48,511 bases of DNA from a virus, in the IMG/VR virus record IMGVR_UViG_3300047384_000444, positions 1-48,511 of that record; one strand, 5' to 3'. The translations under genes were made by a program, and so were the position numbers. Positions 31,316 through 41,400 of this stretch are shown here, in pieces (the stretch's first letter is position 1; every line of letters begins with the position of its first letter). The notes beneath the pieces were generated by a model, which was given only the letters and a program-made list of their open reading frames with translations, made no database searches and was not told the origin of the DNA.

Positions 31316-31323
31316 TATATTTG
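31316..31323 (+). promoter_or_regulatory. Promoter of the structured leader gene
   Basis: An exact TATATTTG -7 element. Transcription would start near 31329-31330, at the first copy of the repeated TGCACGA motif. No good -33 TTTG is visible. Confidence 0.6.
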
Positions 31324-31326
31324 CTG

Positions 31327-31495
31327 TGCACGATTAAACACAACAAAATGGTACTAGAGAAGTTAAAAAAAATGGCCCAGGGGAGCGCCGGTGAGGATTC
31401 ACATCCAAGTCCGGCTACTTCAAACGTTGTGTTTGTCGTGCACCACCCCTGGGCCTCTCTATTTAATCCATTTTGTTATGCACGACAAACACAAC
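31327..31495 (+). promoter_or_regulatory. Leader with two mutually exclusive folds around a start codon
   Basis: A 17-bp element, TGCACGACAAACACAAC, occurs as an exact copy over the start codon (31479-31495), as an exact reverse copy (31426-31442) and as a near copy at the 5' end (31327-31344). A second set of pairs forms one long hairpin: AACAAAATGG/CCATTTTGTT (31342-31351, 31468-31477), TAGAGA/TCTCTA (31355-31360, 31456-31461) and GGCCCAGGGG/CCCCTGGGCC (31374-31383, 31446-31455), with nested GCCGG/CCGGC and GGAT/ATCC. The first fold would hide the AUG at 31478; the second leaves it just outside the stem. Confidence 0.6.
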
Positions 31496-31675
31496 AGCTC
31501 AGGGGAATCCCTGTATTATCGAAACAAAAACGACCTGGAGAGCCGTGAAGGCATCGAAGTCGAAGCCGGAAGCCTCTGGAAACTCAATCCCGAAACCAGT
31601 GAACTGGTTTTAGTAGATGAAGATCAACATATCACGGCAATTTTTGACACTTCAATTTTTCAACAAATTGACTAA
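31478..31675 (+). CDS. Small acidic protein under the structured leader
   Basis: A 65-aa protein from ATG 31478 (MHDKHNSSGESLYYRN). It is acidic and probably a small beta fold (SLWKLNPETSELVLVDEDQH). The longer frame from 31391 would run through the leader hairpins and is unlikely. The start codon lies in the last copy of the repeated leader element, so translation is expected to depend on leader folding. Function unknown. Confidence 0.55.
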   Translation: MHDKHNSSGESLYYRNKNDLESREGIEVEAGSLWKLNPETSELVLVDEDQHITAIFDTSIFQQID

Positions 31676-31750: not shown

Positions 31751-31802
31751 CAAAACCCGAACAAAAGATAGACAACATATAGACTAAACAAAGACCTTTT
31801 TC

Positions 31803-31810
31803 TATATTTG
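31803..31810 (+). promoter_or_regulatory. Promoter of a small structured RNA
   Basis: An exact TATATTTG -7 element. Transcription would start near 31815, shortly before a perfect 9-bp hairpin. Confidence 0.55.
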
Positions 31811-31830
31811 TAAAACATTTACAAAACAAG

Positions 31831-31853
31831 AAACCCACCGTGTAGGTGGGTTT
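31831..31853 (-). terminator. Possible minus-strand terminator behind the tiny hydrophobic ORF
   Basis: The hairpin AAACCCACC/GGTGGGTTT is symmetrical; on the minus strand it is followed by CTTGTTTTG, a moderate T-rich tail. It lies seven bases after the stop of the 16-aa minus-strand ORF. Confidence 0.4.
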
Positions 31854-31859
31854 GAGGAA

Positions 31860-31910
31860 CTACAATTCTCTCAGAATCATGTAGATCAAAAGCAAATAAA
31901 TCGCTTCCAT
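31860..31910 (-). CDS. 16-aa hydrophobic peptide, possible type I toxin
   Basis: A minus-strand frame of 17 codons, MEAIYLLLIYMILREL and stop. The peptide is almost entirely hydrophobic with a charged end, like type I toxins and small holin-like toxins. It lies wholly antisense to the candidate small RNA (31816-31972) and is followed by a hairpin with a T-rich tail on its own strand. A possible minus-strand -7 element is TATTTTTA near 32010. Such a short frame can occur by chance. Confidence 0.3.
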   Translation of the reverse strand: MEAIYLLLIYMILREL

Positions 31911-31939
31911 TACTAACAGGTATTTGAGCGTTATACAAG

Positions 31940-31972
31940 AACCGGAGCTGGAACCTTCGGTTTTTGTTTTTT
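31940..31972 (+). terminator. Terminator of the small RNA
   Basis: AACCGGAG (31940-31947) pairs with CTTCGGTT (31955-31962), one G-T wobble, seven-base loop, followed by TTTTGTTTTTT. Confidence 0.8.
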
Positions 31973-32119
31973 CAGTGCTGATTATGCTCTGTTACAACAC
32001 AGATGTAAAAATACCACTAATCCAATCCTTTCTGCTGAACTCCAAGAAGTTGTTTTCAACTACTCCCTGTTGAAAAAAATTCTAAAATAATTTTCCAGTT
32101 TGGCTTCTGTAGATTTTAC

Positions 32120-32140: not shown

Positions 32141-32259
32141 GGAAATTTTATTTTCCATTTTCAGAAAAGAAACTCAATTTTTTAAGAAACAATTATTTTC
32201 CAAAACCTTCATCTGCTAATTGTCACAATTAAATTAACACCCGTGCTAACTTTTTAATA

Positions 32260-32267
32260 TATATTTG
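32260..32267 (+). promoter_or_regulatory. Promoter of the fibre/surface gene operon
   Basis: An exact TATATTTG -7 element 16 bp before ATG 32284. Upstream, TAACACC (32235-32241) resembles part of the late motif TCACACC but at one base different spacing, and TGTCACA occurs at 32221. It may be a variant of the late promoter class. Confidence 0.55.
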
Positions 32268-32283
32268 GTAAAAGTTTTCCTAC

Positions 32284-38415: not shown

Positions 38416-41400
38416 ATGGCCAAAAGAATAGTTGACGAAGAAATGCGCTTTTCCATTGTTATCAATGGCAATGAAGCGCAGAAAGAACTCTTCGAGCTTG
38501 AGCGATCTACCCGAAAACTTACCCAGGAGAATAAAGAGCTGCGTACCGAAAAGGTTAGGCTGGAGTCCCAGGGCAAAAAAGAATCTGCTGAGTACAAAAA
38601 ACTCACAGCAACCATAAAGCAGAATAATGCTGAACTCCGAAAAAACAAAGCTCGAACTAAAGAGCTTCAGCAGGAAATAGGCATAACCGGCCTAACCATG
38701 GGGCAGCTGTCCAAGAGGGCTTCGCAGTTAAAGCTCGAGCTCCGGAACATGATTCCCGGAAGTGCTGAATATAAAAGGATCCAGGCCGAACTTCGTGCCA
38801 TTGATGGAAGGATGCGGGAATTAAGCTTGGGAGCCCGCCAGGCAGAATCTTCTATCTCCCGACTGGCCAATGGCTTCAATAAATATTTTGCACTGGCCAC
38901 TGGTGTCATTGCTACGGGAACCGGGATGGTTCTATCTCTTCAAAAGGTGATCGATTTTAACGGGAAACTTTCCGATTCCCAGGCCGATGTGATGAAGACA
39001 ACCGGCATGACCCGTGAGGAAGTTGATGACCTTACCAAATCTTTCGGTTTGATGAAAACCAGGACTGCCAGGATCGAGCTTTTAAATCTGGCTACCGATG
39101 CGGGACGGCTTGGTATTACGGGAGTAAAGAATCTGCGCGATTTCGTGGAGGAAATGAACAAGATGAAGGTGGCTCTTGGGGATGATCTTTCCGATGAACA
39201 AATAAAGGAAGTGGGTAAAATCACCGATATATATGATGTAGGTTCCCAGACAGGAAAAGAATTTTCCGGGGCAATGAACGCGGTGGGATCTGCGATTAAT
39301 GAAGTTTCCGCTTCCGGTGCCAATGCTGCCCCATACCTGGTTGATTATCTCAAGCGCCAGGCAGGTATTGCGAAGCAGGCTAAGATAGGTGCAGATCAAA
39401 ACATAGGTTACGCTGCCACTTTTGATGAAATAGGACAAAGTGTGGAAGTTTCTGCTACTGCCATGAACAAAGTGTGGATGGATATTTTTGATGATCCTTC
39501 TACCTATGCGAAGATTGCAGGCATGTCTCTAAAAGATTTCAATAATCTCCTGCAGACAGATTCCAATGAAGCCATGATACGGTTCCTCGAGGGATTGAAC
39601 GGAAATAACGAGGGCTTGTCTGTAATGGTAGAAAAACTGAAGGATATAGATGTTGGCGGTGCACGTGGGGCGCAGGCTCTTTCGGCCCTGGCAGGAAGTA
39701 CAGATAAGCTTCGGGAAAAACAACAATTGGCAAACCAGTCACTTGAGGAAGCTACTTCTCTTACCAATGAGTACAACATTAAGAACAACAACTTTGCAGC
39801 TACCATTGATAAGATCAATAAAAAAATGATGGGATGGTTAGCTTCCGAAACTATCGTGAACAAACTGGAAAGCTGGGCAGTTGCATTTGCCAAATTAATT
39901 GGAGCTACTGAAGATCACTCCGGAGAAATATCTATCTGGAGGGAAAGAATAGTAGCTGCTTTTAAAGTTCTATTAATCCTCATTGCTGCTGTTCTCAGCT
40001 ACAAGGCTGCCATTCAATTAGCTTCCATGTGGACCGCCAGGGCTAGTGCCGTCACAAAAATTCATTACGCCCTGCTAATTGCCCAGGAAATTGCAACCAA
40101 ATCCCTTGCAATCGCAAAAGCCCTTCTCACCGGTAACATCAAGAAAGCGATAATTGCCTACAGGGGATTATCGGCTGCGATGTCGTTAAACCCAATCGGC
40201 GCTGCATTTGCTTTAGTTGCTGCCCTGGCAACTGCTTATTATGCATTTTCTGAAAGCGCAGAGGAGGCGGCTACAGCTCAGTCAATATTGAATGACGCCA
40301 CAACGGAAGCCAACAGATCTACCAGATCTCAGGTGAACGAAATCAATGGACTCCTGGCAGTGGCCAAAGATGAAAAAATTAGCAAAGAGGAACGTATCAA
40401 GGCTATCAATAAGCTAAACGAGATCTCTCCGGAATATTTGGGTAACCTTTCCCTGGAGAACATCAATACCAAGGAAGCCACTACTTCCCTGGATGCGTAT
40501 GTGGAAAGCCTGGTGCGTGCTGCCAAAGCAAAAGCACTAAAAACTCAGCTGGATGCCAAGGCGGAAGAATTGGCAAAAGCTGAAGGCTCTAAGCTTCAGG
40601 ACAATATTGAATGGTATGAGAAGCTGTGGAACCAAATTACTGCATTGAATGATCCGTATGCTGCAGCTGCCAATAATATGAAGACTGCTATCGACAACAA
40701 AAATGAATGGATAGAAGCTACAAAAGAGGAGCTTAAACTTATAGAAGAGCAGTACAAGGCACAGCTGAAAGAAAACGCGAATCAAAATCCAAAAAAGGAA
40801 TCGACGGGTCCTAAGGAAGGAGATACCCAGGTGATTGGAGAGCAGCTGTTCCGTTTCACTAATGGCAAATGGATGGCGGTGAAAACTCCGGTACCTGGAG
40901 GGGATGACAAAAAGAAGAAAGAATTCAAAGTAGATCCTGAAAAAGAGGAATCTGAACTCCGCAGGATCCAGGAGGAAAATGACCGATTGAAGGCTACCCT
41001 TATCGGTGATTCATTTAAGAAAGAAATTGCCTTGGCGGAAGCAAACCATGAAGCGAAGCTCCAGAAACTTCGGGAACAAAAAATTAAGGAAGCTCAGATT
41101 GAGGCATTAGATGTTGAGATAGATAAGGCTGTAGCCTCTGGAGATACAAAAAAGGCCGATTCCCTTAGCCGTACCAAAGAGATCTGGATCCAACGGAACC
41201 GCGAATTAAATGCCCAAATGCAGTACGAAGAGGAACTGCACCAGCTGTCTATCGGTAAAATAATCCAGAAGGGCCTTGAGGAAGACCTTAAGGATAAACA
41301 GAAAGCGTTTGATCGGGAAACAGTTCTTCGGGAAACCGCACATAATAACGCCATGGCTGCCCTTGGCAATAATGAAGCTGCCAAAAAAGTCCTTCAGGAA

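Follow-up and report, generated by a model that had tools for sequence, protein, structure and literature searches.

The window, that is, the whole 48.5 kb stretch of DNA analysed here (IMG/VR record IMGVR_UViG_3300047384_000444), has genes for an integrase and a repressor-like protein at its ends and comes from a temperate Duneviridae-like phage in which positions 31328–31480 form the predicted mRNA leader of the tail module. The integrase is of the tyrosine type and its gene lies 16 kb from the leader, and the tape-measure gene is located at 38416, at a distance of 6.9 kb. The AUG of the first gene, p65, occupies 31478–31480 and its U is hence the first nucleotide of the repeat copy A3. The features of the leader are as follows.

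31316–31323, plus strand: promoter box TATATTTG of the Bacteroidetes −7 type (pattern TAnnTTTG), followed by 4 nt and G(+1), the usual spacing among 36 leaders
31328–31344, plus strand: A1, where the mRNA is predicted to begin (G at +1), an imperfect copy of A3
31344–31351, plus strand: outer arm CAAAATGG, which pairs with 31468–31475 and is peculiar to the window phage
31374–31383, plus strand: B1 (GGCCCAGGGG), 5′ strand of the conserved crossing helix
31387–31415, plus strand: hairpin C, formed by GCCGG..CCGGC around an inner GGAT/ATCC helix; most relatives have a predicted hairpin at this place, of varying sequence
31426–31442, plus strand: A2, the shared strand, partner of A1 (5′ end) or of A3 (start codon)
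31446–31455, plus strand: B2 (CCCCTGGGCC), 3′ strand of the conserved crossing helix
31456–31477, plus strand: AU-rich spacer 5′ of the start codon, about 15–30 nt in most relatives
31468–31475, plus strand: outer arm CCATTTTG, which pairs with 31344–31351 and is peculiar to the window phage
31478–31675, plus strand: p65 gene, encoding 65 residues, a predicted small SH3-like β-barrel resembling phrog_38077
31479–31495, plus strand: A3, 17 nt starting from the U of AUG, the exact complement of A2

A sequence-only reading had described a 17 bp element present three times in this leader. The second and third copies (31426–31442 and 31479–31495) are indeed exact complements over 17 nt, but the first, TGCACGATTAAACACAAC (31327–31344), is inexact, with a length of 18 nt and one substitution and one inserted U relative to A3; the A1:A2 pairing in the window includes one G·U pair and one bulged U. 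Further inverted arms are found at 31363–31383/31446–31466, with the core GGCCCAGGGG/CCCCTGGGCC, and at 31339–31351/31468–31480. The nested tip helices noted in the same reading are present, with GCCGG..CCGGC at 31387–31391/31411–31415 and GGAT/ATCC at 31395–31398/31403–31406, and its view that so much complementarity exceeds chance is borne out by folding of the leader (z = −3.9 and −4.5), which none of 200 shuffles matched. A −33 TTTG box is not apparent in the window, but many relatives have TTTG near −35. Directly after A3, the segment GCTCAGGGG (31498–31506) is a near copy of B1 that can pair with B2 and that enters a predicted centroid fold of the window; it was not seen as a general feature.

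Relatives of the leader and the genes behind it

Neither the leader alone nor the 65-residue protein alone (the latter searched against viral and GTDB collections) retrieved relatives from the databases. The neighbouring 167-residue protein led to L002 and an alignment of the 65-residue protein led to L006, both of which carry a homologous 65-residue gene behind a leader of other sequence and the same plan. The annotated Duneviridae phages 2A, 6H and laban6-1 were recovered through neighbour proteins, and an alignment of a 304-residue neighbour yielded 43 IMG/VR loci, some found before and a few representing the same contig or near copies. A scan of GTDB genomes with the 304-residue alignment gave no relatives, and the leader set contains no host prophages. 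Exact 17-mer matches in IMG/VR (L003 and L004) were discarded as chance hits to two unrelated GC-rich contigs.

The loci were scanned for an ATG preceded by an exact 8 nt complement (A2) and by one more copy (A1), which gave about 25 leaders with a TAnnTTTG box at one fixed distance from A1. A block-shuffled control over all loci yielded A1/A2/A3 triples at a rate of 5.4 per pass, and in none of them did the promoter box stand at that distance. The refined set comprises 36 leaders in 34 phages or contigs, with L031 added by eye, and the group belongs to Bacteroidetes viruses. The order of elements is constant: promoter box, A1, an A-rich loop (about 20–45 nt between A1 and B1 in most leaders), B1, hairpin C (predicted in the majority), A2, a short joiner of 0 to about 14 nt, B2, the AU-rich spacer and the AUG in A3. 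The first A2-pairing nucleotide is G in all 36 leaders and as a rule stands four nucleotides after the box, a position that fits the +1 of a Bacteroidetes −33/−7 promoter and would place the start of transcription at A1.

One leader copy was found per complete phage checked, as in 2A, laban6-1 and the window, and three genomes contain two leaders with different keys: L012 (at 10210 and 10576), L035 and the contig IMGVR_UViG_3300033553_000688 (L010 at 1949 and L002 at 4113). The element is absent from Bacteroides phage B124-14 and from the first 50 kb of crAss001 and was not seen in the examined stretches of Ingeline and BT-TP2; matches in FCL-2 were rejected as AT-rich chance similarity. Five loci with a p65 gene were missed by the scanner (L027, L028, L030, L031 and L037), and among the last four of these no clear case was seen of the situation that would have counted against the sequence-only reading, namely a phage that keeps the 65-residue gene and has lost the repeats. 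L031 has the repeats. Inspection by eye showed that the 5′-end pairing is kept in L028 and L030, with another arm (ACCAAAT) repeated just before the ATG, and in L037, with TCTCAAA repeated 8–14 nt before the ATG; A3 is not on the AUG in these three, which seem to keep a third copy at the start region by other means.

Two observations concern individual leaders. A GGA-GCAA-UCC mini-hairpin with a GNRA loop overlaps the 3′ part of A1 in the L034, L036, L016 and L066 group and might form at the expense of the inner end of A1:A2. In laban6-1, the annotated hypothetical gene laban61_gp010 (QHB38981.1; L017 9887–10120) overlies the RNA leader and is probably a spurious gene call.

The leader had been tied to the 65-residue gene; it is itself conserved, but the first genes vary between phages. 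They encode p65 (65 residues), proteins of about 90–120 residues, mostly without a family (phrog_33690 in 2A), or a 15-residue peptide in laban6-1. Nearly all loci nevertheless have a p65 domain, which makes up the first or the second gene or forms a C-terminal domain, and in many traceable p65-domain loci a long open reading frame that fits a tape measure starts within about 50–1100 nt. In laban6-1 the annotated tape measure is separated from the leader by other genes; a DNA methyltransferase gene and an HNH-annotated gene (Pfam PF03235) are inserted there in reverse orientation, with the p65 gene on one side and the tape measure on the other (L017 10542–12904), and are possibly defence cargo. 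The predicted structure of p65 is a small SH3-like barrel (pLDDT 85), for which the best PDB matches in a fold search are SH3 domains with E values of about 0.05 that offer no functional clue. A role as a tail-assembly chaperone is a guess from gene position only.

Conservation of two pairings of one strand

A2 is complementary to both of the near-copies A1 and A3, so that A1:A2 and A2:A3 exclude each other. Since the first scan had used A3, the selection was repeated blind to A3, the criteria being a promoter box with G at +1 and an A1:A2 pairing of 7 bp or more in which the two strands lie at their usual distance. In 29 of the 37 candidates obtained in this way a downstream ATG is present whose G and following nucleotides pair with A2 for at least six positions; the remaining eight have no ATG in range or no match and look like chance candidates. 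Pair energies were counted outside the 8 nt seed, which had served for selection. Beyond the seed, A1:A2 averages −10.3 kcal mol−1 with its own partner versus −3.2 kcal mol−1 when partners are swapped, the true partner being best in 29 of 36 leaders; A3:A2 averages −5.5 versus −2.4 kcal mol−1, with the true partner best in 10 of 36.

Within the seed, all four Watson–Crick pairs occur at positions 4 and 5 and three of them at position 3, and there are 27 distinct 7 nt keys among the 36 leaders. In 34 of 36 leaders A2 has a purine (A or G) facing the U of AUG, even though this base often mismatches A1, an indication of direct selection on A2:A3. At positions 2–8, ten of the 13 differences between A1 and A3 preserve a G·U or Watson–Crick pair in the plus strand, while the A·C type, which would be expected for the opposite strand, does not occur; this pattern points to selection on plus-strand RNA. 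The close relatives L016 and L066 show matching changes in A1, A2 and A3. When A2:A3 and B1:B2 were scored jointly in MAFFT alignments of two groups of ten, none of 500 shuffles reached the observed covariation score in either group and slid controls scored far lower in both, although such counts are not probabilities and are inflated by relatedness. Covariation in related phages, which had been proposed as the test of two competing A2 pairings, supports both of them. The leaders fit a mutually exclusive RNA switch as judged from their sequences, with one strand, two conserved partners and one of these covering the start region. Covariation of three segments (the 5′ end, the inner strand and the first codons) is a rare form of direct evidence that selection acts on both states of a switch.

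A hairpin of 10 + 6 + 10 bp had also been described in the window as an alternative that excludes pairing at the start codon. Its inner helix, B1:B2, is conserved, whereas the outer 6 + 10 bp are peculiar to this phage, and B1:B2 crosses both A2 pairings as a pseudoknot. In the second alignment group B1:B2 appears as two parts with 85% and 100% of cells paired. The B helix was taken as the best helix in each leader and, considered alone, is in roughly half of the leaders no better than a few of 60 shuffles; the support for B1:B2 therefore comes from its conserved position and from the group alignments.

Proposed translational switch and alternative explanations

The two conserved alternatives for A2 lead us to read the leader as a switch. 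In our judgement, this leader of a tail-assembly/tape-measure operon probably contains an RNA switch that acts in cis and controls translation initiation at the first start codon. During transcription, A2 would meet A1 long before A3 exists, and because A1 and A2 are made before A3 the ON state should form first. B1:B2 would lock A1:A2 as a pseudoknot, leaving the spacer and the AUG open so that ribosomes could start. A1 might then release A2 by slow refolding, through an RNA-binding protein or through attack on the 5′ end, and the freed A2 would cover the U and G of the AUG together with the next codons, such that initiation would stop (OFF). As the trigger we would favour feedback by a product of the tail operon, given that the leader is found together with p65-domain proteins in almost every phage; our second guess is that the 5′ end is lost.

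The calculated energies give no single default state across the members. Nested models, which leave out the crossing helix, favour ON in 25 of 36 leaders. For the window, ON and OFF are about equal (−55.1 and −55.5 kcal mol−1) and the free minimum is a B-based fold. The duplex energies in the window are −29.3 kcal mol−1 for A2:A3 and −23.6 kcal mol−1 for A1:A2; similar members likewise favour A2:A3, whereas others strongly favour A1:A2, and in about half of the members A2:A3 consists only of the 8 nt seed and is weak against A1:A2. Since the balance of pairing differs between members, the leader may act as a simple timer in some and would need a trigger that removes A1 in the rest; refolding time alone could suffice for members like the window, in which A2:A3 is the stronger pairing. 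Removal of the first 20 nt increased the predicted sequestration of the AUG in only 14 of 36 leaders in nested models, which are blind to the crossing helix.

A further proposal, which we regard as unlikely, is a key-and-lock arrangement in which the key of 7–8 nt diversifies such that a tail operon responds to no RNA but its own. If this were true, the 5′ end would mimic the message's own start codon, and the message would be translated only with a matching intact 5′ end or when no matching A2 RNA of a foreign phage is present, amounting to a check of message identity or to exclusion between related phages at the RNA level.

The leader looks previously undescribed as an on/off switch for protein synthesis. 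No Rfam family reached its gathering score for the window or ten related loci, weak E-value matches being chance, and no published description of the leader was found in the literature (open papers only). In the IncI plasmid repZ leader and in T4 gene 32, a pseudoknot upstream of the start codon governs initiation, as proposed here. To our knowledge, neither of them has a three-copy strand exchange with the 5′ end, unlike the present leader.

Other systems share single aspects of the arrangement. In the type I toxin mRNAs hok and aapA and in the leader of the MS2 maturation gene, alternative or transient helices time access to the start (PMC6733600). In hok and aapA the guarded product is a toxin, an antisense RNA serves as antitoxin and the hidden element is the Shine–Dalgarno sequence, whereas in the present leader the start codon itself would be covered, the genes are structural and no antisense RNA was seen. 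A type I toxin–antitoxin mRNA was rejected as an identity for the leader; the first genes are varied and p65 is a predicted SH3-like barrel.

A further likeness is to the seqA/seqB/seqC immunity leader of phage P4, also a phage operon leader, in which one RNA segment has two targets: CI RNA pairs with seqA, which lies upstream of it, and with seqC, which lies downstream (PMC4825925). A2 is likewise a segment complementary to both upstream and downstream sequences of the same leader, so that the P4 order is shared (PMC4825925). This raises the alternative of a trans-acting RNA immunity, in which A2 RNA from a prophage would pair with A3 (and A1) on other messages and stop their translation or transcription, the key being the immunity or incompatibility type. 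The diversity of keys (27 in 36 leaders) would suit such a role, as would the different keys of tandem copies in one genome (the L010/L002 contig, L012 and L035) and the U-rich stretches after B2 in some members. The CI RNA of P4, however, is a processed antisense RNA that terminates transcription of replication genes, whereas here A1 lies at the predicted RNA 5′ end, A3 lies on the AUG, a crossing helix is added and the leader precedes not a replication operon but late tail genes, with p65 and the tape measure downstream in most cases. The members do not generally have a classical terminator after B2, each RNA already occupies its A2 with its own A1, and the window phage has an ordinary repressor-like gene; we consider this explanation quite improbable. 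An intrinsic terminator at B2 was also rejected as a general function, with U-runs in some members only.

A ligand-sensing riboswitch, in which hairpin C and the pseudoknot would form a metabolite pocket that stabilizes A1:A2, appears very improbable. The core is pseudoknotted and a tip loop CCGG-UGNAAGU-CCGG is common to a subgroup, but tip sequences and loop lengths are wholly different between subgroups, with no common core sequence apparent, Rfam gave no riboswitch match and such a sensor would be unusual for phage tail genes. The response to temperature that had been suggested for the window would resemble that of the λ cIII leader, which has two mutually exclusive folds that are open or closed to ribosomes and is temperature-dependent (PMC4166951). 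The present leader has two such folds but uses a copy of the start codon at the RNA 5′ end and shows no predicted flip: the ON/OFF balance calculated with the nested model reverses its sign within 10–45 °C in only five of 36 leaders, the window not being among them. An RNA thermometer is thus extremely unlikely. We give hardly any credence to a DNA element (an invertible segment, as had also been suggested, a recombinase site or operator repeats): there are inverted and direct repeats and a tyrosine integrase, but the G·U-type differences described above point to plus-strand RNA, the register is fixed to the promoter box and the start codon, A1 is imperfect and the integrase gene is distant.

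Two other candidates were discarded. In an HDV-like ribozyme the order of helices is alike (P1, P2, P3 hairpin, P1′, P2′), but P4 and J4/2 are lacking here, the joiner of 0 to about 14 nt has no constant C and A1 begins at the predicted transcription start. A leaderless mini-ORF in A1 is left without a start codon by the predicted start at G.

Returning to the translational switch that we favour, the leader raises the question of how these phages time or balance the synthesis of their tail proteins, and would offer a natural and compact blueprint for controlling translation in Bacteroidetes.

Two additional elements were noted in the vicinity of p65. On its 3′ side, at 31798–31975 of the window (L002 4485–4725), a TATATTTG box, a hairpin AAACCCACC/GGTGGGTTT and a terminator-like end occur together like a second transcription unit (z = −5.1), and the minus strand of the same segment encodes a hydrophobic peptide of 16 residues, MEAIYLLLIYMILREL, which is identical in L002; the arrangement bears a resemblance to type I toxin–antitoxin systems. 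Just before the gene for the 167-residue protein, a promoter-like block TTGTCACA..TTAA..ACTTTTTAnATATATTTGG is strongly conserved in all three relatives, at about 32215–32270 in the window, about 4935–4990 in L002 and about 5260–5310 in L006.
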